Below are positions 1-14,433 of a stretch of DNA of 14,433 bases, in pieces. The notes beneath the pieces were generated by a model. It saw only the letters and a list, made by a program, of their open reading frames with translations. It did not search any database and was not told where the DNA came from. A program made the translations under genes and the position numbers. Source of the DNA: Chloroflexota bacterium (GTDB taxonomy: Bacteria; Chloroflexota; UBA6077; CF-72); the NCBI GenBank assembly GCA_019247135.1, contig JAFAPL010000403.1, positions 1-14,433 of the forward strand. The letters are read 5' to 3'. The first letter of the stretch is position 1. Every line of letters begins with the position of its first letter.

Positions 1-336
1 CTCCTGTGGCTGCTGACGGATCGTGTCCAGCTGTACTACCTGGTCTCGAGCGTACTGGCCACCGAAGCAGCAATTCTGTGCAACTTCGCGCTCAACCATA
101 CCTGGACGTTCCGCGTTAGCCGCAACGGTCAATCAGTCGTGGCTCGCCTGCTCAGATTCAACATCGTGTCTGTTGGAGGCCTCGCGCTCACTGTCCTGAC
201 GCTGTTCCTGCTGAAACAGTTCGCAGGACTCAATCTCCTGTTCGCAAACGTGCTGGCGGTCGGCTTCGCATCGGTCTGGAACTACCTCGCCAACCGACGC
301 TGGACGTGGCCGGTGTCTCCGGCCGCAGGAAGTTGA
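1..336 (+). CDS. GtrA-like membrane protein, C-terminal part (5' end outside window)
   Basis: The frame is open from base 1 to a TGA at 334-336, giving 111 visible residues, so the start lies upstream. The GtrA family is a small four-helix membrane family thought to help move polyprenyl-phosphate-linked sugars across the membrane. Both hallmark helix-end signatures are visible: NFALNHTWTF near residues 28-37 and NYLANRRWTW near residues 94-103, each an Asn-rich turn followed by a basic/aromatic W-T-F/W. Three hydrophobic segments can be seen; the first helix is missing. Such domains often form the C-terminus of a dolichol-phosphate-mannose-synthase-like GT2, so this may be the tail of a longer enzyme; the window cannot decide. 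The next gene begins 11 bases later, so it is probably the same transcript. Its neighbours, several GT2 and GT39 proteins, fit a lipid-sugar flipping role. Confidence 0.85.
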   Translation, partial: LLWLLTDRVQLYYLVSSVLATEAAILCNFALNHTWTFRVSRNGQSVVARLLRFNIVSVGGLALTVLTLFLLKQFAGLNLLFANVLAVGFASVWNYLANRRWTWPVSPAAGS

Positions 337-347
337 GCGCCTCCCTT

Positions 348-1676
348 ATGTCCGAACTCCTGACGTCCTACATCCTCCTGGCGATCTCCGTCCTCCTGAC
401 GGCGCACGCCGGATTCACGCTGTACCTGATGCTGTACACCTGGTGGCGCCCCGAGCGCCTGAGCGCCACACGCAGTCCCTCGACCTACGAGGTTCCACGC
501 CTGCGCTTCACGGCATTACTGCCCGCTCGACATGAGGAAGCGGTGATCGCCGAAACCATCGCGCGCGTCTGGGATGCCAACTATCCACGCGCGTTGCTGG
601 AGGTGGTGGTCATTTGCGAGGCGGGCGACGTCGCCACCATCGCGGAGGCACAACGTGCGATCGATGCGATCAATCATCCGAATGTTCGCCTCGCGACGTT
701 CAGCGATGGCCCTGTCAACAAGCCGCACGGACTGAACGTCGGCCTACGACTCAGTCAGCACGAGATCGTGACCGTGTTCGATGCCGAAGATGATGTCCAC
801 CCGGACATCTTTCAGATCGTCAACACCATCATGCTGCGCGAGAAAGCGTCGATCGTGCAGGCCGGCGTTCAGTTGATGGACTTCAACTCGCACTGGTATG
901 CGCCGCACAACGTTCTCGAATACTTCTTCTGGTTCAGGTCGCGGCTGCACTATCACGCCAGCGTCGGCATGGTGCCGCTCGGCGGCAACACCGTCTTCAT
1001 GGCGCGCCGGCTGATCCAGAAAGTCGGTGGTTGGGACGAGTATTGCCTGACCGAAGACGCCGACATCGGACTTCGCTTGAGTGCGATGGGTGAGCGCATC
1101 GCCATCACGTACGACGCGGAGCACGCAACCCGCGAGGAGACACCACCAACGCTCAAGAGCTTCGTCAAGCAGCGCACGCGGTGGAACCAGGGTTTTCTGC
1201 AGGTACTTGGAAAGCAGTCCTGGTTGGACCTGCCGACCTGGGGCCAACGAGCGTTGGCCGCCTATACGCTCGCGCATCCATTCTTCCAGGCGGCGATCAC
1301 GCTCTTGTGGCCTGCGTCGCTGGTCATGATGGTCGCGGGCAAGGCGCCTGTGCCGCTGGCGATGGTGTCTTTTTTGCCACTGTACGCACTCGCGTTTCAG
1401 TTTCTTCTCAACCTGGTCGGACTCGCGGAGTTCGGGCGTGCGTATGACATTCGCATCGGCCTGATCGACGTGATCTGGTTCACGGTTGGTTTCTTGCCCT
1501 ACCAGGCTTTGCTCGGGTTGGGTGCCGTACGTGCGGTGTTTCGCACCGTCACAGGCGCCAGCAACTGGGAAAAGACCGAACACACTGGCGCCCATCGCAG
1601 TCCAGCCGCACCTCAGGGTGCTGTTGTTGCCGTGCATCTGAAGGGCGCACCGGAGCGGATGGTTGATGCAGCTTAG
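348..1676 (+). CDS. Membrane glycosyltransferase family 2, cellulose-synthase-like
   Basis: A 442-residue processive-type GT2. The N-terminal helix (about residues 5-32) is followed by a cytoplasmic GT-A domain. Visible motifs are DAED at 145-148 (nucleotide-sugar/metal binding), GGNTVFMAR (acceptor side), TEDAD with the catalytic Asp region at 235-239, and QRTRW at 275-279, the Q-x-x-R-W motif of cellulose, hyaluronan and NfrB-type synthases. Two or three C-terminal helices follow, then a NWEKTEH tail typical of this subfamily. It probably uses a UDP- or GDP-sugar to build or extend a beta-linked polymer at the inner membrane; the sugar cannot be read from sequence. The start is the ATG at 348, 11 bases after the GtrA stop. 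In-frame TTG (333) and GTG (306) codons are possible, but GTG would overlap the upstream gene by 31 bases. It shares its motifs and tail with the GT2 at 5255-7141, so the two are distant paralogues. Confidence 0.88.
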   Translation: MSELLTSYILLAISVLLTAHAGFTLYLMLYTWWRPERLSATRSPSTYEVPRLRFTALLPARHEEAVIAETIARVWDANYPRALLEVVVICEAGDVATIAEAQRAIDAINHPNVRLATFSDGPVNKPHGLNVGLRLSQHEIVTVFDAEDDVHPDIFQIVNTIMLREKASIVQAGVQLMDFNSHWYAPHNVLEYFFWFRSRLHYHASVGMVPLGGNTVFMARRLIQKVGGWDEYCLTEDADIGLRLSAMGERIAITYDAEHATREETPPTLKSFVKQRTRWNQGFLQVLGKQSWLDLPTWGQRALAAYTLAHPFFQAAITLLWPASLVMMVAGKAPVPLAMVSFLPLYALAFQFLLNLVGLAEFGRAYDIRIGLIDVIWFTVGFLPYQALLGLGAVRAVFRTVTGASNWEKTEHTGAHRSPAAPQGAVVAVHLKGAPERMVDAA

Positions 1677-4443
1677 TGTTCTTGCGCCTCCGACTCCGAG
1701 GCAGGATTTTCGGACGCTGCCCAGCGTGGCAGAACAGACAACGGCTCCGCGTGAGCAGCCGCGCAGGCGCTTGAGACCACCCGCGGTGGCCACCATTGTT
1801 TCCATTCTCGCGCTTTTGTTGGTGATTGGAGTCACCGGAGCTGTTACGGGTCTCAACGTCGCGGGCTCTCCGCACTACGAATCCGACGAAGGCACATACG
1901 TCGCATCAGCGTGGTCGATGTTCAACTACGGTGAGCTGTCGTACTACACCTACAACTACGACCACCCTCCGCTCGGCTGGTTCGTGATCGGCGCGTGGTC
2001 CACGCTCGTCGGCGGCTTCACCGCCCTCGGCAGCAGCATCACCACCGCACGCGTGCTGATGGTGCTCGTATCCGTTGGGTCCGCGGTCCTGATCATGGCC
2101 ACCGTACGTCGGGTAACTGGAAGTCTCGCGGCGGGAGTGTGCGCAGCCCTGTTGTTCGCGGTCTCACCACTTGGTACCGCGCTCCACCGCCAGGTCTGGC
2201 TCGACAACCTCGCGACATTCTGGCTGCTCTTGTCTGTCTATCTACTGCTGGGCGCTCGTCGCAGCCTGGGCGCAACGTGTCTGAGCGCCCTGGTGTTTGG
2301 CCTGAGCTTCTGGACCAAGGAAGTGATGGCCGTGTTCGTCCCGGCGATGCTGGTGCTGGTCGCCGTCTCAGCCCATTCCCTTCATCGACGTTTCTCGATT
2401 GTGCTTTGGGCAGCGACGGCGCTCGGCATGATTTCTCTCTTCGTGCTGCTCGCCTTGCTGAAGGATGAGTTCCTGCCATCTGGCGTGTTGTGGAGCTCGC
2501 CCGACGCGCACGTGAGTCTGATCGAGACATATCTCTGGCAGATGTCGCGCGGCGGTGCCGGATCCATCCTTTCGTCGAGCTCAGAGTTTCGCCAGTTCTT
2601 CGACCAGTGGTGGCAAACCGACCCCACGCTGGTGGTTGGCGGGATAGCAGCCGCCGTTCTAGCGCTGGTTCTCATTCGCATGGCTCCGGTTGCAGGCGCA
2701 ATCGCGCTGCTGGCGCTGACCTATCTTGCGTTCCTGGCTCGCGGAGGCGTGGTTCTCTACTACTACATCATTCCGGTGCTGGCCCTGCTGGCGCTTGTCG
2801 CTGGACTGCTGCAGGGGTATGTGGCTCGACTGCTCGGCAAGCTCTGGGCACCGCTCGGTCGGCTTGCTGCCGTCCTGATCCTTGTCCTGGCTGGAGTGCG
2901 AACCGATGCCGCCGCGCAGGCAAGCTCGGTGGACTTTACCGAGCGGCCAACCGAAGCGCAGGACGCGGCCGCGCAGTGGATGATCCACAACCTGCCGCAC
3001 GACAGCATCATCTTGATGGACTCTTACGCCTGGGTCGAACTGCGCGACCCGGCGACAACCGGAGGACAGCCATTCAGCGCGGCGCACTACTACTGGCCGG
3101 GTGTATCCGACCCGTCCCTTAGCGAGGGCGTGCTGCACAACGATTGGCGCACGATCGATTACCTGGCCATGAGCCCCAGCGTCGAGGCGGACATCGCCAA
3201 TCGACAGTTACCGATCTTGCCCGACGCTCTCGACAATTCCGACGAAATCCAGACGTTCTATTCGGACAACTGGTCAGTGCGCATCTTGCGCGTCCGCAAA
3301 CTGCACGAACAGGTGGCGAGCACAGATCCCTTTCTCATGAACACATGGACAACATTCAAGACTCAGTATGTGCACGATGGTGAAGTCGTGAGTCCAGGTG
3401 GACGCACCGCGACTTCCGAATCCCAGGCGAACAGTTTGCTTCGCGCCGTGTATGCAGATGATCGGCCAGCCTTCGACCAGATATGGAGCTGGACGCAGAC
3501 AAACCTTCAGGTACGTCAATCGGACAGCCTCCTGGCACACCAGTGGGGACCTCAACCTGACGGCAGCCTTGGCGTGATGGATGCTCAGTCAGCGGCTGGC
3601 GCCGACGAGGACACCGCCCTGGCACTGCTGTTCGCCGCGCGGCGTTGGAACGACTCCACGTACCAGGCGAATGCACTCGCGATCATCAACGACCTCTGGA
3701 CCAGCGAAACTGCCGTGGTGGGTGGACAGCGCGTGCTTCTTGGCGCGCCGTGGAGCCCTGGCTCCGACTCATCGGAGCAGTCGAACCCAGTCGTCAATAC
3801 CTCCTACTTGGCCCCGTACGCGTACCGCATCTTCCAACAGGTCGACCCGGACCATTCGTGGCTCGATCTGGTGGACTCGAGCTACGACATTCTGGGCCGC
3901 ATTCGGGCCAGCTCTCAATTCGGTGGCTCGGCCGGTGTCGTTCCCAACTGGATTGCCCTGGATCCGAACACCGGTGAGCTGAAGCCCGCGGATGCGCTGG
4001 GCCCAGGCTGGTCGCTGTTCGACTACGAGTCCAGCCAGGTGCCGTGGCGTCTAGGGCTGGATTGGCTGTGGTTCAAGGACAATCGCGCGACCGATGCGCT
4101 CGCGGGCATCACTCTTCCGTACCGGCAGCTGAGCAGCGATAACTTCCTGCTGGCGGCGTACATGGCCGACGGTCAACCCGCGGCGGATTACGAGGCGACA
4201 TCCATGTACGCGGCGACGTTGCCGGGCGTCCTGATCTCGCAAGACCGCAATCTGGCCGAAACCGTCTTCGCGGACAAGGTCCTGCGTGACTACCACGTTG
4301 ACGGCGGCACAGCCTACTTTGGCAATCCCGACGATCTGAACGACCAGACCTGGAGCTGGTTCGCAACCGCATTGATGGATGGAGGCATGGCAAATCTATG
4401 GAGTGGTGACAGCGCGCTGCAGTGGGACGAGGTGCTGCCTTGA
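1666..4443 (+). CDS. GT39 (ArnT/PMT-like) glycosyltransferase fused to a GH8-like domain
   Basis: A 925-residue protein in three parts. Residues about 35-420 form a multi-spanning GT-C domain. It carries the Asp-Glu pair D74-E75 in ESDEGTY on the first outer loop and a YDHPPLGW loop, both typical of GT39 enzymes that transfer sugar from a polyprenyl-phosphate donor outside the membrane. Residues about 425-555 are a soluble linker domain. Residues about 556-925 resemble glycoside hydrolase family 8: W561-x-x-F-K, TSESQ with E585 at the general-acid position, an ADEDTALALL helix (646-655) and VPWRLGLDW (792-800). The residues expected as D-x-x-R just before PWR are E788 and Q791, so the hydrolase may be altered or inactive. 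Typical GT39 proteins are about 500-600 residues; the extra 370 are the GH8-like part. The ATG at 1666 has GGAG at 1652-1655; the gene overlaps the previous one by 11 bases. The GT39 call is solid and the GH8 call is good. Confidence 0.85.
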   Translation: MQLSVLAPPTPRQDFRTLPSVAEQTTAPREQPRRRLRPPAVATIVSILALLLVIGVTGAVTGLNVAGSPHYESDEGTYVASAWSMFNYGELSYYTYNYDHPPLGWFVIGAWSTLVGGFTALGSSITTARVLMVLVSVGSAVLIMATVRRVTGSLAAGVCAALLFAVSPLGTALHRQVWLDNLATFWLLLSVYLLLGARRSLGATCLSALVFGLSFWTKEVMAVFVPAMLVLVAVSAHSLHRRFSIVLWAATALGMISLFVLLALLKDEFLPSGVLWSSPDAHVSLIETYLWQMSRGGAGSILSSSSEFRQFFDQWWQTDPTLVVGGIAAAVLALVLIRMAPVAGAIALLALTYLAFLARGGVVLYYYIIPVLALLALVAGLLQGYVARLLGKLWAPLGRLAAVLILVLAGVRTDAAAQASSVDFTERPTEAQDAAAQWMIHNLPHDSIILMDSYAWVELRDPATTGGQPFSAAHYYWPGVSDPSLSEGVLHNDWRTIDYLAMSPSVEADIANRQLPILPDALDNSDEIQTFYSDNWSVRILRVRKLHEQVASTDPFLMNTWTTFKTQYVHDGEVVSPGGRTATSESQANSLLRAVYADDRPAFDQIWSWTQTNLQVRQSDSLLAHQWGPQPDGSLGVMDAQSAAGADEDTALALLFAARRWNDSTYQANALAIINDLWTSETAVVGGQRVLLGAPWSPGSDSSEQSNPVVNTSYLAPYAYRIFQQVDPDHSWLDLVDSSYDILGRIRASSQFGGSAGVVPNWIALDPNTGELKPADALGPGWSLFDYESSQVPWRLGLDWLWFKDNRATDALAGITLPYRQLSSDNFLLAAYMADGQPAADYEATSMYAATLPGVLISQDRNLAETVFADKVLRDYHVDGGTAYFGNPDDLNDQTWSWFATALMDGGMANLWSGDSALQWDEVLP

Positions 4444-5258
4444 GCTCGCCTGGACAGACGGTGCACACCACGCTGATCATTCCCGCGCACAACGAGGAGG
4501 CGCGGCTCGCCACAACCCTCCACCGGTATAGCGTCGCTCTGCGCGAGCGTTGCGGTCCGGCATTCGAGATCGTCGTTGTCGCGAATGGCTGTGAGGACGC
4601 CACCGCGGACGTGGCGCGTCGGATGGCACTCAAGTTTCCGCAGATTCGTGTGCTCGAGATCGACGCTCGAATTGGGAAAGGCGGAGCCATCCTGGCCGGA
4701 TTCGACGCCGCCGAAGCACCGGACATCGCCTTCGTCGATGCCGATGCGGCCACTGAACCGGAGTCGCTGCTCGACCTGCTCGATCACTTGAAAACGCACG
4801 ACGTGGTCATCGGCTCGCGGCGGCTCCCCGGCAGCCTGATCACGCACAAGCAGCCGCTCAAACGACAGCTGTTTGGCTCGGTATTCGCTGTGACTGCTCG
4901 ATTGCTGTTCGGGTTGCCGTTCCGCGATACACAGTGTGGCGCCAAAGCATTCCGCGCGGAGTCCGCAAGGTTGCTCGCGCCCATGGTCCGTGAGCGCTCA
5001 TGGATGTTCGATCTGGACCTGCTTCTGTCCGCGGATGCGGCAGGGCTCTCGATCCTGGAGTACCCGGTCACCTGGGCCGACCAGCCTGGCTCACAATTGC
5101 GCCTGCTTCCGACGGCTCGCGAGGTGATTGGCGCGCTGTGGCGTCTCAAGCGGCGGGCGGCGCCGATTGCCGAGGTCGAGCCTGACCTGGTGCCCGGCTA
5201 CATATCAGCCGTTCCCGGAGCTGACCGGGATCCGGCAATCGTGGCGAGCGTCCAATGA
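4440..5258 (+). CDS. Glycosyltransferase family 2, polyprenyl-phosphate sugar synthase-like (ALG5/DPM1 type)
   Basis: About 272 residues and no obvious transmembrane helix, so probably a peripheral cytoplasmic enzyme. It starts with LIIPAHNEE, carries DADAA at residues 100-104 (metal and sugar-nucleotide site), FRDTQCGAK around 161-169 and WMFDLDLLL in the C-terminal third. This combination marks the dolichyl-phosphate glucosyl/mannosyltransferase branch of GT2. The inferred reaction is transfer of glucose or mannose from a nucleotide sugar to polyprenyl phosphate, which supplies the donor used by the two GT-C proteins in this cluster. The start chosen is TTG at 4440, giving a TTGA overlap with the preceding stop and a GAGG ribosome site at 4429-4432, 7 bases upstream. 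GTG at 4422 is an alternative adding six residues. The stop overlaps the next gene's ATG (ATGA). The exact sugar is unknown. Confidence 0.85.
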   Translation: MSSPGQTVHTTLIIPAHNEEARLATTLHRYSVALRERCGPAFEIVVVANGCEDATADVARRMALKFPQIRVLEIDARIGKGGAILAGFDAAEAPDIAFVDADAATEPESLLDLLDHLKTHDVVIGSRRLPGSLITHKQPLKRQLFGSVFAVTARLLFGLPFRDTQCGAKAFRAESARLLAPMVRERSWMFDLDLLLSADAAGLSILEYPVTWADQPGSQLRLLPTAREVIGALWRLKRRAAPIAEVEPDLVPGYISAVPGADRDPAIVASVQ

Positions 5259-7141
5259 CATCTGGAGTCATGTCGATGCTGCGGCAACTAGCAGCTCCAC
5301 CCGCGCTGTTGGGCGAGCGATTGCTGGATTCCGGCACGATCACGTCGCGACAACTGGCGGAGGCGCTCCAGATGCATCGCGCGACAGGCGTGCCTGTCGG
5401 GCAGGCACTGGTCAATCTCGGCTTCACCTCAGACGTTGAGGTCATGCAGACCGTCGCCTCGCAACGCGGAGTCCCGTTCCTGGACCTCCGCTCCGAACCA
5501 CCTGATCCGCGCGTCGCGCACCTGTTGCCGCGCGATGTCGTTGCCCGTCTGCGTGTGCTGCCGGTGCGAGAAGATGTGCGCGACGGGACTGTCCTGCTCG
5601 CGTGCACCGAGATTCCATCCGCAGCTCAGCTTGCCGAGTTGGAGCGCAGCATGGGGCGCACCCCCGAACCCGTCATCGTCGCTCCGTCCGCGCTCGATCA
5701 AACGCTGCACGAGGTGTATCGGGACCACGACCTCGACTATTCGGGAAATGACCTGGCCAGTCGGCAACCCGAGAACTCGGCCAAACGAGTGTTGAGCCGC
5801 GCTCAACAGGCATTCTTCGCCATCCTGGTGGTGAGCATCGGCGCGGGTCTGCTGCTGCAACCGGTGTATACGGGAACGCTGCTGGCGGTCGGGGTCACGT
5901 TGTTTTACGTGTTCTGCTCGGCCTACAAGCTGTATCTGACGTCGCTGGCATTCGCCCGTAAGCGCGAGGTGCAGGTGCCTCACGAGGAAATCGCAGCGCT
6001 GGACGATCGTGAATTGCCGGTCTATACCGTCCTGGTACCGCTGTATCGGGAGACGGAAGTCCTGCCGGTCCTTGTGGACGCCATCACTCGACTGGATTAC
6101 CCGAAGCCAAAGCTCGACGTGCGCATCCTGCTGGAAGAGGACGACGTGGAAACCCGCGCCGCCGTGCTGGCTAGCGACTTACCTGGCTATTTCACTCCTG
6201 TGGTGGTGCCCAAAGGCACGCCAAAAGGCAAGCCGAGGGCGTGCAATTACGGACTCATCCATGCGCGCGGCGAATACGTCGTCATCTATGACGCCGAGGA
6301 CCTGCCTGATCGTGACCAGCTCAAGAAGGCGCTGCTTGCATTCAAGAAGGGTGACGATCGGCTCGCGTGTGTCCAGGCCAAGCTCAACTACTTCAATCGC
6401 GACCAGAACATTCTGACGCGGTGGTTCACGTCCGAGTACAGCATGTGGTTCGACCTGCTGCTGCCCGGGCTTGGAGCGAGTGGCGCGCCCATTCCGCTGG
6501 GCGGCACCAGCAATCACTTCCGTATCGACCAGCTTCGCAAGCTGGGAGCATGGGACCCGTACAACGTCACCGAAGACGCGGACCTCGGCATCCGGTTGCA
6601 CAAAGCAGGCTCGAAGACGGTCGTCGTGGATTCGACGACGTATGAGGAAGCAAACTCCGAAACCTTCAACTGGATCCTGCAGCGGTCGCGCTGGATCAAA
6701 GGCTACATTCAGACGTACCTGGTGCATATGCGCAACCCGGTGCAGCTGTGGCGGTCCATTGGTCCTCGCGCATTCATCAGCTTTCAATTCATGGTTGGCG
6801 GCACGGTTGCGTCGCTCCTCCTGAACCCGATTTTCTGGGGCCTCACAGCACTATGGTTTGCTACACGCGCACACTACATTCAGGAAATCTTCCCCACACC
6901 GATTCTGTATCTGGGCACGCTGGCGCTGTTCTTCGGCAATTTCGCGTTCGTGTACCTGACTGTTGCCGGCTGCCTGCAGCGACGCCATTACCACCTGGTC
7001 TTCTTCGCCCTGCTCACACCCATTTACTGGGCGCTGATGTCGATCGCCGCGTGGAAGGGATTTGTTCAGCTCTTCTATGCCCCCAGCTACTGGGAAAAAA
7101 CCAGGCACGGTCTCTACCGCGGAAAGGTCTCGGTTGAATAG
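5255..7141 (+). CDS. GT2 cellulose-synthase/NfrB-like glycosyltransferase with N-terminal MshEN (c-di-GMP receptor-type) domain
   Basis: A 628-residue protein. Residues about 15-160 form an MshEN domain, as found at the N-terminus of GspE/PilB/MshE ATPases. It has the family's two 24-residue motifs (18-41 and 47-70) separated by 5 residues, then GVPFLDL and a domain ending in LHEVY. Two helices follow (about 185-225), then a GT-A domain with DAED (346-349), GGTSNHF, TEDAD (439-443) and QRSRW (476-480), then three or four helices and a YWEKTRHG tail. In NfrB of E. coli an MshEN domain at the other end makes a GT2 respond to cyclic-di-GMP; by analogy this enzyme may be controlled the same way. 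However, the leading Arg of motif I is Leu18 here, its closing Gln is His41, and motif II begins with Pro47. ATG at 5255 overlaps the previous stop; ATG at 5276 has a better ribosome site (GGAG, 5264-5267, 8-base spacing) and would remove seven residues. Confidence 0.87.
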   Translation: MTSGVMSMLRQLAAPPALLGERLLDSGTITSRQLAEALQMHRATGVPVGQALVNLGFTSDVEVMQTVASQRGVPFLDLRSEPPDPRVAHLLPRDVVARLRVLPVREDVRDGTVLLACTEIPSAAQLAELERSMGRTPEPVIVAPSALDQTLHEVYRDHDLDYSGNDLASRQPENSAKRVLSRAQQAFFAILVVSIGAGLLLQPVYTGTLLAVGVTLFYVFCSAYKLYLTSLAFARKREVQVPHEEIAALDDRELPVYTVLVPLYRETEVLPVLVDAITRLDYPKPKLDVRILLEEDDVETRAAVLASDLPGYFTPVVVPKGTPKGKPRACNYGLIHARGEYVVIYDAEDLPDRDQLKKALLAFKKGDDRLACVQAKLNYFNRDQNILTRWFTSEYSMWFDLLLPGLGASGAPIPLGGTSNHFRIDQLRKLGAWDPYNVTEDADLGIRLHKAGSKTVVVDSTTYEEANSETFNWILQRSRWIKGYIQTYLVHMRNPVQLWRSIGPRAFISFQFMVGGTVASLLLNPIFWGLTALWFATRAHYIQEIFPTPILYLGTLALFFGNFAFVYLTVAGCLQRRHYHLVFFALLTPIYWALMSIAAWKGFVQLFYAPSYWEKTRHGLYRGKVSVE

Positions 7142-8794
7142 ATGAGTCAGACGTACACCACGACACTCGCCGCACCGGTCGCCTTTCCCAGCGAGAGCCG
7201 CGCGGTGTCCAGACTCTCGAGCCTGGACTGGCAGCCGCTGCTCGTCGCGACCCTGGCGCTCCTGTTCGGCGCGGTCTCAACCTACCTGGCAGCACGCGGT
7301 GACCTGATCCTTCTCTACAACGACAGCATGTCGCACCTCGACGTGGCGCGTCGTGTCGTCGATTCGCGTACACCGGGTCTGGTGCAGCTGGGCACCGTCT
7401 GGTTACCCGTGCCGCACATGCTCCTGTTGCCGCTGGTCTGGGATCACTTCCTGTGGCGCAGCGGGCTGGCCGGAAGCATCGTCGGCGTGGTCTGTTTGAT
7501 GATCACGGCGGTGACCCTGTTTCAGTCCATCCGCATGATCACCAGTCACCAGTCGGTCGCGTGGCTGGGGGTGGCGGTGCTGCTGACCAACCCGAATGTC
7601 CTGTACCTGCAAAGCACTGCCCTTACCGAACCGGTTCTGCTGGCGACGATGACCGCCTCCGCGTATTTCCTCCTGAGGTGGAACCGCACGGGGTCACACA
7701 TCTCGCTGACGCTTGCCGGTTGCACCGCGATGCTGGCCGTTGGTAGTCGGTACGACGGCTGGTTCTTCGCAGTCGTCTGCGCCGCACTCGTCTTCATCGT
7801 CACGTGGCTGGGTACTCGAAAGCTCGCAGACGCGCAAGGTGTCAGCCTCGCGTACGCCGTGTTGCCGGTTTACGCGATGGTGCTGTGGGTCGTCTACAAC
7901 TGGGTGATCTTTGGCGATCCGCTGTATTTCCAGCGCAGCGAGTTCTCCGCCGCATTTCAGCAGCAACGCTTCTTTCTGGAAGGCAAGCTCCCCACACGTG
8001 GCAGCTTGAGTATTTCCACTCTCACCTATGCGTGGGCAGTCCTGGAAAATGTTGGTGTGCTCGTGGTGGCGCTGGGCGCACTCGGGCTGCTGGTCTTCAC
8101 CCTGAGGACGCGATTCAATCGCGACTCGCTGACAAGCTATGCATTCTTGTCGGGGTTGCCCTTCAACATCATTGCGCTGTATCTCGGGCAATCCATCATC
8201 ATGGTCCCGACGATGGATCCGCCCGGATACTTCAACATCCGGTACGGCATCGTGCTCTTGCCGGGCATCGCGCTGTTCGTGGCATATCTCGCGAATGAGC
8301 TGGCACGCTGGGTTCGCCCCTTTGCGGCCGGAGTGATGGTGGTGCTCGTACTCGCGGTCCAGGTGTCGCTCTGGCTACCGGGCTGGCCGCGATCAGTCAT
8401 TACCATCGCCGACGGCCTTGGCGGCATGAGCACCAAGACGAACCCGGTCCAGACGGCTCACTACCTGCGCGATAATTATCAGGGCGGTGGTGTGCTGGTC
8501 GACGACACGCTCGTGGGCCTCATCTTCGAAAGTGGTCTGGACCTGAAAGAATTCGTCGGCACCGGCAATGGTGACTTGTGGCGGAGCGCACTCAAGGACC
8601 CGGCCAACAATGTCGAGTGGGTGGCTTTCCGTCCGAACGAGATGGGAGATCGTGTAACGGCTGCTCTCGAAGGCGAGCCGGCACTTACCGAGAACTTCAC
8701 ACAGGTCTACGCTGCCGAGGATTACGTGGTGTATGAGCGAAACTCCGACATCGCGGCTAATGCAAACGGAAGCGGCGACTCGGAGGTAGACTAG
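7142..8794 (+). CDS. Multi-spanning GT-C (GT39-like) glycosyltransferase
   Basis: 550 residues with about 10-12 predicted membrane helices over residues 30-420 and a soluble C-terminal tail of about 130 residues. The first outer loop holds YNDSMSHLDVARRV with D61, followed by GTVWLPVPH. This layout matches GT39/ArnT-like enzymes of Chloroflexota and Actinomycetota, but the second acidic residue of the usual Asp-Glu pair is Ser here. It probably transfers a sugar from a polyprenyl-phosphate carrier to an extracellular acceptor; donor and acceptor are unknown. The ATG directly follows the TAG of the previous gene with no intervening base, so co-translation is expected; an AAGG at 7124-7127 is rather distant. 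The next gene starts 3 bases after its stop. A polymerase or ligase of O-antigen type is a less likely alternative because the D-x-x-x-H loop and PVPH motif favour GT39. Confidence 0.78.
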   Translation: MSQTYTTTLAAPVAFPSESRAVSRLSSLDWQPLLVATLALLFGAVSTYLAARGDLILLYNDSMSHLDVARRVVDSRTPGLVQLGTVWLPVPHMLLLPLVWDHFLWRSGLAGSIVGVVCLMITAVTLFQSIRMITSHQSVAWLGVAVLLTNPNVLYLQSTALTEPVLLATMTASAYFLLRWNRTGSHISLTLAGCTAMLAVGSRYDGWFFAVVCAALVFIVTWLGTRKLADAQGVSLAYAVLPVYAMVLWVVYNWVIFGDPLYFQRSEFSAAFQQQRFFLEGKLPTRGSLSISTLTYAWAVLENVGVLVVALGALGLLVFTLRTRFNRDSLTSYAFLSGLPFNIIALYLGQSIIMVPTMDPPGYFNIRYGIVLLPGIALFVAYLANELARWVRPFAAGVMVVLVLAVQVSLWLPGWPRSVITIADGLGGMSTKTNPVQTAHYLRDNYQGGGVLVDDTLVGLIFESGLDLKEFVGTGNGDLWRSALKDPANNVEWVAFRPNEMGDRVTAALEGEPALTENFTQVYAAEDYVVYERNSDIAANANGSGDSEVD

Positions 8795-8797
8795 CCT

Positions 8798-10342
8798 ATG
8801 TCCACCGCACAGGCCTGGCTGCGCCTTGGGACCGCGGTTCTGGCAACAGCGCTTGTCGCCGGACTCGCCTTCTGGTGGGCCAATCTGGACCGCTCGGCAG
8901 CGGCGTTCGTCGGCAAATCCGACACACATTTCACGCTCGGCGGAACGCCTTTCCATTTCGTCGGCGTGAACATGTACAACGCCGCGGGTGATCCCGCGAT
9001 CTACTCGTGTGGGCCCTGGATGGCCAATCCGGATGAAGAGTTGCAGCAGTGGTTCCATCGTGCAAAAGTCGAGTCGGGAGCCACCGTGGTCCGGTTCTGG
9101 GCGTTTCAATCCTATACCGCTGGTGGCACCGACTGGAGCGCGCTCGACCGCGTTATGCGGGTGGCCAGCAAAGAGGACATGAAAGTCATCCCGGTCCTGG
9201 AGAATCAATGGGACTCCTGCACCGAAGGCGGGATCAAGGATGCTACCTGGTACGCCGGCGCGTACCAGCGTCCCTACGGATACCCTCTCTCGTATCGTGA
9301 CTACGTCCGCAAGGTCGTCGAGCGTTACCGTGACAATCCCGCGGTCTTCGGCTGGATGCTGATCAACGAGGCGGAGAGCGCGAGCGCGGGCGGCCAGGAA
9401 GACCCGGACGCGTTGTACGGATTCGCTCGCGACATGAGTGCTTTCGTGCACGCACTGGACACCAACCACCTCGTGACTCTGGGCGTTCCTGGTGGGGCGG
9501 GTAAGCCCGGCGCGAGTGGGGGTCATTACGGGGCGCTGCACGCGCTCCCAACCATCGACTTCCTCACGTATCACGACTACGGTTTCGACGACGCGGCGAT
9601 GCCTGGCCTTCCAGTAGACCTGGCCAGCCCGCTGATCGTCAGCGTATTCACCCAGGACAACAGCTGGAAATGGGCCGACGGCGGCTATACGCAGTTGAAA
9701 TCTCGCGCCTGGCAAACGCTGTCCACGAATGTCCCCGCCGGCGCTCAGCCATATCAGCGCATGGGACTGAACTTCGTCGGCCAATTCACCGGCGACGTTT
9801 ACATCGGCCGGGTCCAGGTGGGCACGCACGACTACACCTTCAATGACGGAACGACTGGTGGATGGCAAGCAAACTCACCATTCGTGCTCGACAACGTGCC
9901 CGGCGTGGGTATCAACGGGGGTGATGCGCTCCACCTCAGCGTCTCTCCGACAGAAGGCAGTCAAATCTCGCTGCCACTACCTGACGATGTCCAGGCCGGC
10001 ACTCCCATTTCGGTCGAGGTGTACGCCGACGGGCCCGGCCAGACGAACCTCTCCGATTCTCTGGCGGCGGCTCTGCACGACGGTGCGAACCTGGATAAGC
10101 CACTGGTGGTGGACGAATCGGGCATGGTGACGTGCCAACCCGACGGTGGTCGGCCGCTCGAAACCCCGGCGTCGCGCGCGGCCAAGTTCGACGCGAAGCT
10201 GGGTGCCTTCTTCGATCAGGGCGGCGCGGGTTACCTCGTCTGGACATGGAATCCGGAGTCGGACTGCTCGTATGACTTCACCACTGGCGATCCCCTCAAT
10301 GGAGTGCTTGCGCGATATGCGGCAAACCTCCGGGGTGCATAG
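8798..10342 (+). CDS. GH5 (mannanase/cellulase-type) glycoside hydrolase with CBM-like domain inserted in the barrel
   Basis: 514 residues with an N-terminal hydrophobic segment (about 7-28) and no clear cleavage site, so a signal anchor or export signal. The barrel can be followed strand by strand: FVGVNMYN (strand 1), VVRFWAF (2), VIPVLENQW (3), GWMLINEAE with N190 and acid/base E191 (4), YHDYG 258-262 (6), VVDESG with nucleophile E440 (7) and YLVWTWNP from 479 (8). E191 and E440 are 249 residues apart; GH5 enzymes usually have roughly 110-150. About 150 residues (272-425) between strands 6 and 7 look like a jelly-roll carbohydrate-binding module whose two halves run in reverse order (see findings). 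The likely substrate is a beta-mannan or beta-glucan. The start ATG has GGAGG at 8782-8786, 11 bases upstream. It follows the GT genes by 3 bases and overlaps the next hydrolase. Confidence 0.85.
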   Translation: MSTAQAWLRLGTAVLATALVAGLAFWWANLDRSAAAFVGKSDTHFTLGGTPFHFVGVNMYNAAGDPAIYSCGPWMANPDEELQQWFHRAKVESGATVVRFWAFQSYTAGGTDWSALDRVMRVASKEDMKVIPVLENQWDSCTEGGIKDATWYAGAYQRPYGYPLSYRDYVRKVVERYRDNPAVFGWMLINEAESASAGGQEDPDALYGFARDMSAFVHALDTNHLVTLGVPGGAGKPGASGGHYGALHALPTIDFLTYHDYGFDDAAMPGLPVDLASPLIVSVFTQDNSWKWADGGYTQLKSRAWQTLSTNVPAGAQPYQRMGLNFVGQFTGDVYIGRVQVGTHDYTFNDGTTGGWQANSPFVLDNVPGVGINGGDALHLSVSPTEGSQISLPLPDDVQAGTPISVEVYADGPGQTNLSDSLAAALHDGANLDKPLVVDESGMVTCQPDGGRPLETPASRAAKFDAKLGAFFDQGGAGYLVWTWNPESDCSYDFTTGDPLNGVLARYAANLRGA

Positions 10343-11975
10343 GCGGACGTTTCTGAAGCTCCTGGCGGTCGGCGTGCCTGGGGCTGCCGCCGCCATTACG
10401 GTGGCACGGAACGCGGGCCACTGGTTGCCGCCGCGCGACGCGCTCCACCAGGTAGTGCTCCAGGAGCTCGCCGGATTTACGACATGGCTGGAGCAAAATC
10501 ACGTCAAGGGCTTCATCGGTGAGGTCGGTTGGCCCGACAACACCGACGGGGACGCGTCGGACTGGAACCAGCTTGCCCAGGCCTGGTTCGAGGCCGCGGA
10601 TCGATCGCAACTCTGGGTGGCTGGATGGGCCACGGGCGCATGGTGGGAAGCGACGTACAGCCTCGCGATGTACCGTCGGGAGAACTCGGAGGCTGGTGTC
10701 GATACACCGAATACGCAAGCGAGCGTCCTCGAGGCGCATCCCAGCACAAACACGTACCTCCGGGGAATTGCTGTCGCGGGCGGCTCCTTCTCCGCGGCGA
10801 CGGATGAGCCCACAAGCGATTTCTCGAACGTGCAACGTGGGACGTACGACGTCGACTATCACTACGACGGAGCCGAGACCTATCAGTACCTGGCTCAACG
10901 CGGCCTGCGTCTGGCGCGGATTGACTTCCGTTGGGAGCGAATCCAACCAACACCAGGCGGACCGCTGGACGAGGCCGAGCTGGCGCATCTGGATGACGCC
11001 GTTGCAAGCGCCGGCGCGGCCGGCCTGCAGGTAGTGCTCGATCTCCACAACTACGGCGCGTATTACCTGTCCGACGGTAGGCAGGGCGTACGCCAGGCGA
11101 TCGGCTCGCCGACAATAAGCGAGTCACACTTTGCCGACGTGTGGCAGCGACTCAGCGCTCACTACCAGGACAATCCGAACGTCGTCGCGTACGGACTGAT
11201 GAACGAACCGACGGACTTGCCAACGCTCTTCGACGCGCAGACCAGATTTGCCGACCTGGACTCATCCGCTAACGGATGGCAGGCGGACAACGGTGGGCCC
11301 GAAGTATTGAGCCGAATTAGCTCACCGAGCCACGGCGGTCAGTTCGCGCTGAAGATTGCTCGCGAATTTCCCAGCGCGCCAGGCTACGGGCACATGCGCG
11401 TCCACGACAACGGCAGCACGATTCATGCTCCACGGGACCTGTCCGGCGCGGGCGACACGCTCGCGCTCTGGGTGTACCTGCCCGCGGACACGGGCGGAAG
11501 CACCTGGCAAGCGCGACTGTTCGTGTATGGCGACCGCCGATCCTTCGACGCGGCGAGCGTCCCATTACAGCGCGGCAACTGGACGCAGGTGACCGGACAG
11601 TTCACTGCTGAGGCCTTGAAGAACGTGCTCGCCGCGGGTATTCAGGTCTACTGCAATGACGTTGCTGGACCGGCCTGGATAGCACTCGACGGTCTGGCCC
11701 AGGGAGCGCAGCGTACCCCTGCTCAGGTGTGGGAGGCTGCGTCCCAGTCCGCGGTGGACTCGATTCGGGCTAACGGCGATGGAAAACTGATCGCGGTCGG
11801 CGGCTATGGATGGTCGCGCGTCCCGTCATGGGCAGAGCAGCACTCCAGGGCGTGGATTCAGGATCCGTTCGATCGGATTCGCTATGAGGGCCACCATTAC
11901 TGGGATCGCGGCCGGTCGAGCTTCTATGCTCGACCCTACGCCGACGAACTTTCATCGGCGCGCAGCTCGGCCTGA
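10317..11975 (+). CDS. Tat-exported GH5-type glycoside hydrolase, apparently circularly permuted, with internal CBM-like domain
   Basis: 552 residues from ATG 10317. A twin-arginine signal (HRRTFLK, R9-R10, then a hydrophobic stretch to about 30) marks export. Directly after it, residues 43-125 look like the last part of a GH5 barrel: GFIGEVGWP with a nucleophile-like E69, then WVAGWATGAWW (100-110). Only then do the first barrel strands appear: RGIAVAGG (149-156), RIDFRW (201-206), VVLDLHNYG (239-247) and GLMNEP with acid/base E297. A jelly-roll CBM-like insert occupies about 311-461. The barrel resumes with LIAVGGYGWS and EGHHYW (H526), and the protein ends 24 residues later, where a normal GH5 would continue to its nucleophile. 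The start overlaps the previous gene by 26 bases, with GGAG at 10301-10304. GTG 10335 is an alternative start without a ribosome site. Family call good; permutation is inference. Confidence 0.8.
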   Translation: MRQTSGVHRRTFLKLLAVGVPGAAAAITVARNAGHWLPPRDALHQVVLQELAGFTTWLEQNHVKGFIGEVGWPDNTDGDASDWNQLAQAWFEAADRSQLWVAGWATGAWWEATYSLAMYRRENSEAGVDTPNTQASVLEAHPSTNTYLRGIAVAGGSFSAATDEPTSDFSNVQRGTYDVDYHYDGAETYQYLAQRGLRLARIDFRWERIQPTPGGPLDEAELAHLDDAVASAGAAGLQVVLDLHNYGAYYLSDGRQGVRQAIGSPTISESHFADVWQRLSAHYQDNPNVVAYGLMNEPTDLPTLFDAQTRFADLDSSANGWQADNGGPEVLSRISSPSHGGQFALKIAREFPSAPGYGHMRVHDNGSTIHAPRDLSGAGDTLALWVYLPADTGGSTWQARLFVYGDRRSFDAASVPLQRGNWTQVTGQFTAEALKNVLAAGIQVYCNDVAGPAWIALDGLAQGAQRTPAQVWEAASQSAVDSIRANGDGKLIAVGGYGWSRVPSWAEQHSRAWIQDPFDRIRYEGHHYWDRGRSSFYARPYADELSSARSSA

Positions 11976-12058
11976 GCAACCGTCATTTGACGGCCCCGCG
12001 GACCAGGCATACGATACGCCGGCGCCCACATCGGCTCGCCACGAAAGGGGATACAGCA
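11976..12058 (+). promoter_or_regulatory. Intergenic region with sigma70-type promoter for the sugar importer
   Basis: The 83 bases between the second hydrolase and the importer hold TTGACG (11987-11992) and TACGAT (12010-12015) separated by exactly 17 bases. This is a good match to a housekeeping promoter: 5 of 6 and 4 of 6 consensus positions. Initiation would fall near 12022, leaving a short leader before the ribosome site at 12045-12050. A perfect 6-base inverted repeat with a 2-base centre (CCGTCA-TT-TGACGG, 11980-11993) overlaps the -35 element and could be a repressor operator. No terminator with a T-run is seen for the upstream operon, so read-through is possible. The promoter call is by eye only. 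Confidence 0.5.
12045..12050 (+). promoter_or_regulatory. Ribosome binding site deciding a TTG start
   Basis: AAGGGG lies 8 bases upstream of TTG 12059, ideal spacing. It is 20 bases upstream of the in-frame ATG at 12071, too far. This favours TTG as the start of the binding-protein gene. Confidence 0.6.
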
Positions 12059-13351
12059 TTGATCAATACCATGCGCCTCTCCCGGCGCGGATTTCTGCGC
12101 ACTTCTGTCGGCACGGCGGGCCTGCTCGCCGTCGGAGCGAACCTGACCTTGCCGCCGTTGCTGGCGGCAGCCGCTGGAAAGCTCGAGATTTTCTCATGGT
12201 GGACCAGCCCAGGCGAAGTCGAGGCGCTCCAGGCGCTGTACGACGTGTTCAAGCCACAGAACCCGGGCGTCGACGTCGTCAACGCCGCACTCGCGGGCGG
12301 CACTGGCGCTGGCGGCAACATGAAGGCGGTGCTCCAGACCCGCATGCTGGCCGGCCAGCCTCCCGATTCCTTCCAGGTCCACCTCGGACACGAACTGATC
12401 GACAGCCACGTCAAAGCTGGACGCATGGAGCCGATCGACTTCCTGTACGAGAGTGAAGGCTGGGCGAACGTCTTCAATCAGCAGGTCCAGCAAATTGCTG
12501 CCTCCGATGGCCACCAGTGGTCCGTCCCGGTCAACATCCACCGCTCCAACATCATCTGGTTCAACAACGACCTCGTGGCCAAGAGCGGCATGGCGAATCC
12601 GGCCAGCTTTGACGACTGGTTCGCGATGGCCGATGCACTGAAGGCGCAAGGTATTCCGGCACTGGCGATTGGCGAGTCCAACCCGGGCCACGCCGCGCAT
12701 ACCTTGGAGACCATCCTCCAGGCCGTCTTCGGTCCCAACGATTACAAAGGCCTGTGGACCGGCGCGACATCCTGGACCGACCCCCGCCTCAAGGATGCCC
12801 TCAGCACCTTCAACCGCATGCTGGACTATGTCAACCCGGACTACCTCTCAGTCGCCGGCGCTGACATCACCGACTACATCATCGCCGGTAAAGCCGCCAG
12901 CATGATCAATGGCGATTGGACCAACGGCTACTTCAAGAGCAAGAAATTCACCAGCTTCAGCTATTTGCCCACCCCAAGTGGAGCCGGTGTCTACAGCGCC
13001 CTCGCCGACTCTTTCGGACTGCCCGTCAACGCTCCCGACCGCGACAACGCCGTCGCATGGTTGAAGGTCTGCGGCTCACTCGCGGGTCAGGACGGCTTCA
13101 ACCCGTTGAAGGGCTCCATCCCGATCCGCAGCGACGCCGGCAAGACCGCCGCGTATGACGATTATCAGCGTTGGGCCATGAACGAGTTCGCCAACGACAC
13201 GATCGTCCCGAGCGTCGTCCACGGCTTCGCGGCCAAAGAAAGTTGGGTCACCGACTACGTCAACTACGTGAACGTGTTCGCGACCAACCGTGATGTCGAC
13301 GCCGCGGCCAACGCTCTCCTGCAGGCCGCGCAGGACGCTGGTGTCGCCTGA
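12059..13351 (+). CDS. Sugar ABC transporter substrate-binding protein (glucose/mannose type), Tat signal
   Basis: 430 residues from TTG 12059 (426 from ATG 12071). The signal SRRGFLR followed by a hydrophobic stretch and PPLLAAAAG is a twin-arginine export signal. The mature protein starts with KLEIFSWWTSPGE, then GGTGAGGNMKAVLQTRML, PPDSFQVH, WSVPVNIHRSN, SMINGDWTNGY, SDSFGLP and GFNPLKGSIP. From memory these follow the Thermus thermophilus glucose/galactose-binding protein along nearly its whole length, and the size fits that family (about 400-430 residues). It should deliver a mono- or short oligosaccharide, most likely glucose or mannose, to the permeases encoded next. It has its own promoter candidate, so it may be expressed separately from the upstream glycan block. 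A strong hairpin lies just after its stop codon, as often seen after binding-protein genes that need higher expression than the permeases. Confidence 0.92.
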   Translation: MINTMRLSRRGFLRTSVGTAGLLAVGANLTLPPLLAAAAGKLEIFSWWTSPGEVEALQALYDVFKPQNPGVDVVNAALAGGTGAGGNMKAVLQTRMLAGQPPDSFQVHLGHELIDSHVKAGRMEPIDFLYESEGWANVFNQQVQQIAASDGHQWSVPVNIHRSNIIWFNNDLVAKSGMANPASFDDWFAMADALKAQGIPALAIGESNPGHAAHTLETILQAVFGPNDYKGLWTGATSWTDPRLKDALSTFNRMLDYVNPDYLSVAGADITDYIIAGKAASMINGDWTNGYFKSKKFTSFSYLPTPSGAGVYSALADSFGLPVNAPDRDNAVAWLKVCGSLAGQDGFNPLKGSIPIRSDAGKTAAYDDYQRWAMNEFANDTIVPSVVHGFAAKESWVTDYVNYVNVFATNRDVDAAANALLQAAQDAGVA

Positions 13352-14312
13352 GCCTGGATTGCGACCCAGCACGGGGGGCGAACTGGTCGCCCCCCGTTTC
13401 GTTTCCGCGCCAGCCAAACAGCAGCCTCGCCGACGGTCGCTACTCAACAGCGACATGTTCTGGGCCGTGGTCGTTCTGAGCCCATCTATCGTTGCCGTCC
13501 TCATCTTCATCTACGCCTTTATCCTGTGGACCGGCTTCATCTCGCTCGTCAACTGGAACGACGTAACCCCCACCTATGGTTGGGTCGGACTCCAGAACTT
13601 CGTCAGGCTTTTTCAGACGCCGCGCTTCATCACCGATCTGCGGAACACGGTCGTGTTCAGCGTCGTCTTCATGGGCCAATGTCTGATAGTCGGCCTCATG
13701 CTGGCGATATTGCTCGACCAGAAAGTCCGCGGTGAGGCGTTCTTCAGGACCGTCTACGTTCTGCCGTTTGCGATCTCCGCGATCGTGACCGGTATTTCGT
13801 GGAAATGGCTGATGAATCCGGGTAGCGGCATCGACGCAATCTTCGATGTACTCGGCCTCAAGTTCCTGGAAAACAAGTGGTTTGCCGATCCCAATATCGG
13901 CATCGCCGCCACCGCGATCGCCGCCGCGTGGCAGATGTCCGGCTACACCATGGCACTCTATCTTGCAGGCTTACGCGGTATCTCGGGTGAATTGCGAGAT
14001 GCCGCCAAGATCGACGGCGCCAGCGGAGTCCAGTACTACCGCCACGTCGCAATTCCGCTGGTGATGCCAGTCACGCTGACCGCCGTCATCATTCTGGGCA
14101 CCATTTCACTCCGGCTCTTCGATCTGCCCGCGTCCATGACTTCCAGTGGACCTGGTTTCGCGACCGACTCGCCCGCATTTTTCATGTTCCAGACCACGTT
14201 CCAGCAGTACAAGTATTCCCAGGGCGCGGCAATCGGCGTGGTGATGCTGCTCATCGCGCTCCTGGTCATCGTGCCGTATTTCTTCACCATCCGCGACGAG
14301 GTAGAGGCGTGA
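13341..14312 (+). CDS. Sugar ABC transporter permease (MalF/UgpA-like)
   Basis: 323 residues from GTG 13341. About six membrane helices are visible, beginning with FWAVVVLSPSIVAVLIF and preceded by a basic stretch (QQPRRRS). The EAA coupling loop that docks onto the ATPase is present as ELRDAAKIDGAS followed by IPLVMP. TVYVLPFAIS and WKWLMNPGSG are typical of the MalF/UgpA family of carbohydrate permeases. The start is uncertain. GTG 13341 overlaps the binding-protein stop by 11 bases and has AGGA at 13332-13335 (5-base spacing), but it puts the 13371-13397 hairpin inside the gene. The first ATG after the hairpin is at 13455 and would remove the basic N-terminus that such permeases normally keep; it has no ribosome site. 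No ATPase gene is seen; these importers often share a MsmX/UgpC-type ATPase encoded elsewhere. Confidence 0.87.
   Translation: MSPEPGLRPSTGGELVAPRFVSAPAKQQPRRRSLLNSDMFWAVVVLSPSIVAVLIFIYAFILWTGFISLVNWNDVTPTYGWVGLQNFVRLFQTPRFITDLRNTVVFSVVFMGQCLIVGLMLAILLDQKVRGEAFFRTVYVLPFAISAIVTGISWKWLMNPGSGIDAIFDVLGLKFLENKWFADPNIGIAATAIAAAWQMSGYTMALYLAGLRGISGELRDAAKIDGASGVQYYRHVAIPLVMPVTLTAVIILGTISLRLFDLPASMTSSGPGFATDSPAFFMFQTTFQQYKYSQGAAIGVVMLLIALLVIVPYFFTIRDEVEA
13371..13397 (+). terminator. Strong hairpin between binding-protein and permease genes (attenuator or mRNA-stabilising element)
   Basis: A perfect 11-base inverted repeat: ACGGGGGGCGA at 13371-13381 pairs with TCGCCCCCCGT at 13387-13397 across a 5-base loop (ACTGG). 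It begins 20 bases after the binding-protein stop. It is followed by TTTCGTTTCC, a weak interrupted T-run, so partial termination or 3'-end protection is more likely than full termination. The same arrangement is known between malE and malF and in many binding-protein/permease pairs. Confidence 0.65.
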
Positions 14313-14433
14313 CGCTGACATGGCGTCCCTTCGGGCGGATTCTGCTCTACGCAGTGCTGATCTTCTTCGCCGCCTACTACCTGTTGCCGATCTACATGCT
14401 CGTGCTGACGGCGATGAAGCCGTACGACCAGGT
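14309..14433 (+). CDS. Sugar ABC transporter permease (MalG/UgpE-like), N-terminal part (runs off window)
   Basis: Starts at GTG 14309, whose GTGA overlaps the stop of the preceding permease; GAGG at 14298-14301 sits 7 bases upstream. The 41 visible residues contain a basic start, then a first membrane helix (ILLYAVLIFFAAYYLLPIY) and the LTAMKPYDQ turn (usually S-x-K/T-x) typical of MalG-type permeases. Position directly after a MalF-type permease supports the call. The 3' end, including the EAA loop, is outside the window. Confidence 0.85.
   Translation, partial: MTLTWRPFGRILLYAVLIFFAAYYLLPIYMLVLTAMKPYDQ

Follow-up and report, generated by a model that had tools for sequence, protein, structure and literature searches.

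Layout of the gene for P0001

The window analysed here is a stretch of 14,433 nucleotides from contig JAFAPL010000403.1 of a Chloroflexota bacterium (GCA_019247135.1, positions 1 to 14,433). On its + strand, the open reading frame (ORF) at 10317-11975 encodes P0001, a protein of 552 residues with the stop following residue 552, which is very probably a circularly permuted, single-barrel enzyme of glycoside hydrolase family 5 (GH5). Its strand order, 7-8-1-2-3-4-(insert)-5-6, is drawn from the ORF, matches in the PDB, a predicted model, and a rotation of the sequence. The original prediction had this ORF and its coordinates right, along with the motifs GFIGEVGWP (E69), WVAGWATGAWW, RGIAVAGG, RIDFRW, DLHNYG, NEP (E297), and HHYW (H526).

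The frame begins with a putative export signal (10317-10436), assigned by the motif HRRTFLK, which follows the twin-arginine consensus. The start could be either ATG 10317 or GTG 10335, the latter being just ahead of this motif. Next comes the β7-β8 segment (residues 41-141, 10437-10739; profile hit, model, and PDB match), moved to the N-terminus with nucleophile E69 (10521-10523) and W104, and its strands span residues 64-71 and 100-106 in the model. A short linker, read from the gap between profile hits (residues 142-146, 10740-10754), leads from the old C-terminal segment (..TQASVLEAH) to the old N-terminal segment (YLRGIAVAGG..). The β1-β4 segment (residues 147-302, 10755-11222; profile, model, and conservation) contains R201, H244, N296, and acid/base E297 (11205-11207). 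After an insert between β4 and α4 (residues about 304-466, 11226-11714), the β5-β6 segment (residues 466-545, 11712-11951; profile and model) carries H526 and Y528 and ends in the new C-terminus.

The insert sequence has no match in Pfam or PDB. Its modeled fold is matched by 2c26 (Foldseek E 1.4e-8, 173 columns, from which we infer coverage of the insert, as no range is printed for this match), and it is probably a β-sandwich of the carbohydrate-binding type, resembling a carbohydrate-binding module (CBM).

Permuted order in a predicted single barrel

In Pfam, only GH5 (PF00150, 99.0 bits, cut-off 23.5) matches P0001 at E up to 1, and the best single stretch of the native sequence covers profile positions 22-132 only, because P0001 matches GH5 chains in permuted pieces. 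When P0001 is aligned with 5hos_A (phmmer, PDB), its residues 170-301, 469-534, and 47-117 fall on 41-163, 165-237, and 249-317, respectively. The other two printed PDB alignments, with 5hpc_A and 4w7u_A, follow the same permuted order. By this match, the N-terminal piece of P0001 is the C-terminal piece (β7-β8) of an ordinary GH5; taken alone, the third stretch (47-117) is modest, with independent E values of 0.0053 (5hos) and 3e-5 and 3.8e-5 (other two). Both parts are homologous to one reference, each present once and in exchanged order. The usual GH5 order, with the acid/base before the nucleophile, is not found in P0001, which is therefore a permuted variant of GH5 rather than an ordinary member.

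The original prediction had proposed comparing a rotated sequence with the native one on the GH5 profile and predicting the structure, and both comparisons agree with it. The Pfam GH5 score increases from 99.0 bits in the native order to 107.9 after rotation (126-552 + 43-125), and to 122.2 when the insert is also removed. Only then does the sequence fit the profile in one piece, as a single stretch at 22-269 of 272. Rotated and insert-free, P0001 looks like an ordinary GH5 by its sequence, as the normal-order relative P0103 scores 123.2 bits. In the AlphaFold2 model of P0001 in native order (predicted local distance difference test 92.6, predicted template modeling score 0.89), all eight strands are present, and residues of the N-terminal segment supply strands of the barrel. 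All eight are also present in the predicted model of a compact Demequina relative (P0160). The (β/α)8 barrel is thus seen in predicted models only, which were compared with the PDB. Segment order, rotation, the native-order model, and conservation in many sequences together support that P0001 is circularly permuted.

Predicted catalytic site

The GH5 active site consists of R, H, N, E, H, Y, E, and W, and P0001 keeps all eight (R201, H244, N296, E297, H526, Y528, E69, and W104). In an alignment of 76 rows (A2), R201, H244, and H526 are invariant (76/76), E297 is in 75/76, N296 in 74/76, and Y528 in 73/76, while E69 and W104 are in all 74 rows having a letter there. Although a few members are altered at N296, E297, or Y528, most members should, by this conservation, have an ordinary retaining GH5 site. 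The best reading of P0001 is an exported endo-β-glucanase of putative activity and substrate.

Permuted and normal relatives

Proteins were collected by word-based searches, each covering up to ~8000 candidates, from one permuted seed (P0001) and one normal-order seed (P0100). They were sorted by segment profiles (β7-8, β1-4, insert, and β5-6) built from nine permuted proteins. The sorting is not bound to one order, because these profiles recover the normal order in normal proteins. The P0001-seeded search yielded 116 proteins; with the query, these first 117 comprised 100 permuted proteins (90 plus 10 with insert, the latter counting both P0001 and P0002, an identical copy of it), 11 normal ones (10 plus 1 with insert), and 6 incomplete. 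The P0100-seeded search yielded 113, part of them already known, for a combined total of 209, sorted as 143 permuted (130 plus 13 with insert), 46 normal (43 plus 3 with insert), and 20 incomplete or other.

Permuted proteins come from Geodermatophilus sp. SYSU D00965 (P0069), Demequina sp. NBRC 110056 (P0160), and Demequina pelophila (P0162), and from metagenome-assembled genomes (MAGs) called Actinomycetota (P0014), Rubrobacter (P0150), Chloroflexota (P0138), and Candidatus Dormibacteria (P0077). The permuted order has been passed on to a large set of relatives among bacteria. The permutation is not an event local to this locus, as the original prediction had implied, but an arrangement common to many.

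Across the 143 permuted proteins, a median of 4 residues separates the old C-terminal segment from the old N-terminal one, with both quartiles also at 4 (range -3 to 24), and the median length of the new C-terminal tail is 7. The former ends are joined and the new ends lie between secondary-structure elements, as the cut site is between β6 and the helix before β7. The normal-order P0100 starts its barrel with YLRGVAVAGGSF and ends its chain with ..NTQAAVLEAHRSAR, and the same pieces are found in P0001 as ..NTQASVLEAHPSTNTYLRGIAVAGGSF. In the proposed course, the ancestral ends (after α8 and before β1) would have been fused directly, and new ends would have opened between β6 and the helix leading into β7. 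The chain would still close one barrel, where E69 (β7, now N-terminal) and E297 (β4) would meet in the usual retaining GH5 site.

Of 396 genomes from the phylum to which G001, an Actinomycetota MAG, belongs, 82 show some match at E up to 0.001, for the most part weakly and partially. Strong matches (E below 1e-80) occur at 13 places in 10 genomes; all 12 complete copies are permuted, and the 13th, in G001, lacks β7-8. No normal-order genes of the P0100 type were seen among the 13 reported places, which are permuted genes or that of G001, although some may escape with ~3 candidates scored per genome. In the class of another genome (G207), 6 of 39 genomes have a match at E up to 1e-20, indicating a patchy distribution. 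Phage and plasmid records (2 and 8, respectively) gave partial matches only, covering at most 35% of the query.

Permuted GH5 is also present on IMG/VR viral contigs (L002, L005, L006, L007, and L025), in L007 inside a 1759-residue open frame. On another viral contig, L004, an in-frame TAG at 8199-8201 lies inside the β8 segment of a permuted GH5, by recoding or nonsense mutation. In an Actinomycetota MAG, a relative at L001 2409-3191 has no β7-β8 and has AEP in place of NEP, and it is probably a decayed gene. One genome has a seemingly broken permuted copy with one stop of each kind inside (G281:C70:17335-17920) and a complete copy on contig C67.

Alternative explanations

An assembly error or a frameshift might hide the true C-terminal strands downstream of P0001. 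Nothing was found in favor of this. The β7-β8 profile (nine relatives) hits the window once, at 10437-10739 (E 6e-48), with nothing else above chance in six frames, so that no second copy is hidden downstream. Only ~90 bases lie between the stop (11975) and ATG 12071, ahead of the LSRRGFLR motif of the next gene, leaving too little room for the missing strands. Third-position GC content is 0.63-0.83 in 12/12 blocks of the ORF, and the same order recurs on other contigs and genomes. With the six-frame scan and this gap, the error is ruled out for practical purposes. P0001 could instead, as the original prediction had itself considered, join what is left of the N-terminus of one GH5 to a second GH5 that lacks its C-terminal part, not forming one barrel. 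The piecewise order itself, and nothing more, speaks for such a fusion, which we consider very improbable, as the pieces give one set of eight strands, each once, catalytic residues are kept on both pieces, and after rotation the sequence matches nearly the full length of the family profile. Moreover, 143 of the 209 proteins are arranged in this way, with a linker as uniform as described above. Several points do weigh against the circular permutation or its spread. The best stretches of all 55 listed PDB sequences lie within residues 147-304 of P0001, and neither an assay nor a solved structure of a permuted member came up; the structure-prediction alignments consist of permuted proteins, A2 also including two fragments without β7-8. 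The 143:46 ratio is no natural frequency, because it depends on two seeds and on the ~8000 candidates covered per search, and 3-4 candidates were scored per genome in most genomes. No A-B-C-A duplication intermediate of this subfamily is present among the 209 proteins.

If P0001 is a permuted GH5, as we hold, its catalysis could still be lost, or its main substrate could be another one (e.g., mannan, xyloglucan, or mixed-linkage glucan) rather than a cellulose-like exopolysaccharide. GH5 is polyspecific, the insert beside the acid/base could change the cleft, and the neighboring GH5 is mannanase-like. On the other hand, all eight canonical residues are kept, and the solved proteins closest to it in sequence and in fold bear the names of cellulases or endo-1,4-glucanases, which makes this alternative unlikely. 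The permuted order may also reflect more than one topological event, either with the normal-order P0100 group and L008/P0176 derived from permuted ancestors or with the permutation repeated. In a tree of 102 rotated rows, all 61 permuted rows fall in a set of 69 rows (100/84) together with 8 normal-order rows in three groups. In another tree of 80 rows, long rows and some outgroups were removed. Both trees need three changes, and in the 80-row tree the starred branches force all three, where a single permuted clade is weakly rejected (approximately unbiased (AU) test p 0.027). A tree of inserts alone joins those of the P0100 type with those of permuted P0046-P0050 (89/86, not starred). However, the single clade is not rejected in the 102-row set (AU p 0.349), where the starred branches force only one change and the bootstrap had not settled, and AU p increases to 0.15 in the 80-row set when L008/P0176 are left free. 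The stem leading to the P0100 group is also long, with many branches open. We thus consider a single origin of the permuted order possible, and multiple events rather improbable.

Origin and insert

A further, doubtful idea is that barrel topology is labile in this part of GH5, as the permuted order would have reverted in at least one line (P0100 group) or arisen more than once, and some contigs may still carry permuted and normal paralogues next to each other. The longest contig is equal for P0050 and P0100 (27710) and for P0047 and P0125 (9065), hinting that permuted and normal relatives share one contig.

Permutation can arise by duplication, or by fission and fusion, the textbook routes outlined in PMC3320104. 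Here the route might have been tandem duplication followed by loss of both outer ends. A viral ORF of 1296 residues (L018, 7299-11186) contains two GH5 copies of normal order one after the other, as permutation by duplication would require, with low scores against the profiles of this group.

The insert after β4 occurs in both orders, in normal P0100, P0118, P0127, P0097, and L003, and in the permuted P0001, P0046, P0145, and P0173 groups. Its sequences are related in most carriers, but not clearly so in P0097/L003, and its presence requires at least 8 changes on the tree.

Neighboring genes and likely role

The genes overlap or adjoin on the + strand from a GT2 gene (306-1676) through the permuted GH5 gene. 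The first is followed by a single ORF of 926 residues (1663-4443) for a PMT-like membrane glycosyltransferase with a C-terminal BcsZ-like GH8 domain (PF01270, 117.1 bits; BcsZ model, 116.9 bits, below its cut-off of 299), and by another GT2 gene (4422-5258). A GT2 synthase with an N-terminal MshEN domain that would bind cyclic di-GMP (c-di-GMP) lies at 5255-7141 (NF053729, 46.9 bits, cut-off 38); the N-terminal part of this protein also matches NfrB. A PMT-like gene follows at 7142-8794. A sugar ABC transporter comes after the permuted GH5 gene.

Immediately upstream of P0001, as the original prediction noted, is a GH5-like gene (8798-10342, +; Pfam 25.7 bits, cut-off 23.5), overlapping the P0001 gene by 26 bases. 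The prediction had hinted at it as a tandem partner. Locally, it aligns with P0001 over no more than 26 residues (E 0.015), and among its 18 PDB matches the top 8 bear the name of mannanases, so it is rejected as the tandem parent of P0001. The mannanase matches stop near residue 261, and residues 347-434 weakly match a xylanase module (4xup, E 0.0089), a hint that its own barrel may contain an insert.

P0001 is encoded together with a polysaccharide synthase in the window. At locus L081, the neighbors of the permuted GH5 are a GT2-PilZ cellulose-synthase-like gene and a GH26. At L084, permuted GH5 is not far from a Wzy-type ligase. By analogy with BcsZ in cellulose synthesis, P0001 may trim or release a β-glucan-type exopolysaccharide made by this c-di-GMP-linked glycosyltransferase operon. 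We hold this role with middling confidence and for this member only. On the opposite side, the synthase proteins of the window match neighboring ORFs at 1 of 19 stretches (L081; crude gene calls), and for L082 and L083 the checked neighbors have metabolic or transport functions. The neighbor check covered 7 ORFs from 4 loci, and longest-ORF gene calls are poor in GC-rich loci, as the permuted gene was missed at L073, L075, L077, L078, and L080.

Comparison with known systems

By homology and residues, P0001 is a GH5 and a new topological variant of it. The endoglucanases XacCel5A (4w7u and 5hpc), Xac0029 (5hos), P. stutzeri Cel5A (4lx4), and RBcel1 (4ee9), which we take to be of subfamily GH5_5, resemble P0001 in the sequence of the barrel segments, in fold, and in catalytic residues. 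However, their strands run from 1 to 8, whereas P0001 has 7-8-1-2-3-4-5-6 with a β-sandwich insert after β4. The normal-order P0100/P0118-P0130 group is 34% identical to P0001 over 452 aligned columns and 49% over 103. The group shares the α8 end NTQAAVLEAH with P0001, and P0100, P0118, and P0127 have a related insert at the same site, but its order is normal, and its chain stops at the point that the linker occupies in the permuted proteins. BcsZ has a GH8 fold, so P0001 may work like BcsZ without being one, and the GH8 of this operon is in the separate gene at 1663-4443.

Because both orders coexist in GH5, they would allow direct tests of the origin of the permutation, of passage through a tandem duplicate, and of the effects on folding, stability, and activity. 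Because sequential profile searches see permuted enzymes in parts (native 22-132), such enzymes may be annotated as truncated or hypothetical. Laboratory-made permuted barrels tolerate moved ends as P0001 does, but artificially; here the ends of a classic enzyme fold seem to have been shifted naturally and the new arrangement retained. Few glycosidase families have been studied as much as GH5. In the open-licence PMC literature searched, no natural GH5 permutation was found, although it may be described elsewhere; in PMC7410926 and PMC6719137, the term refers to CBMs in a reference and to laboratory methods. MalS of GH13 subfamily 19 is a permuted glycoside hydrolase with domain order C-A-B-A-C (PMC10223318). 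That is a permutation of domain order involving the C domain, whereas in P0001 the strand order within the barrel is permuted. GH70 versus GH13, in another clan than GH5, is the best-known case of a glycosidase barrel permuted in nature. GH70 glucansucrases are naturally circularly permuted in their (β/α)8 barrel relative to GH13 (PMC11046441). There the permutation marks a separate family, whereas in GH5 normal and permuted barrels at about 34-49% identity coexist within one family.

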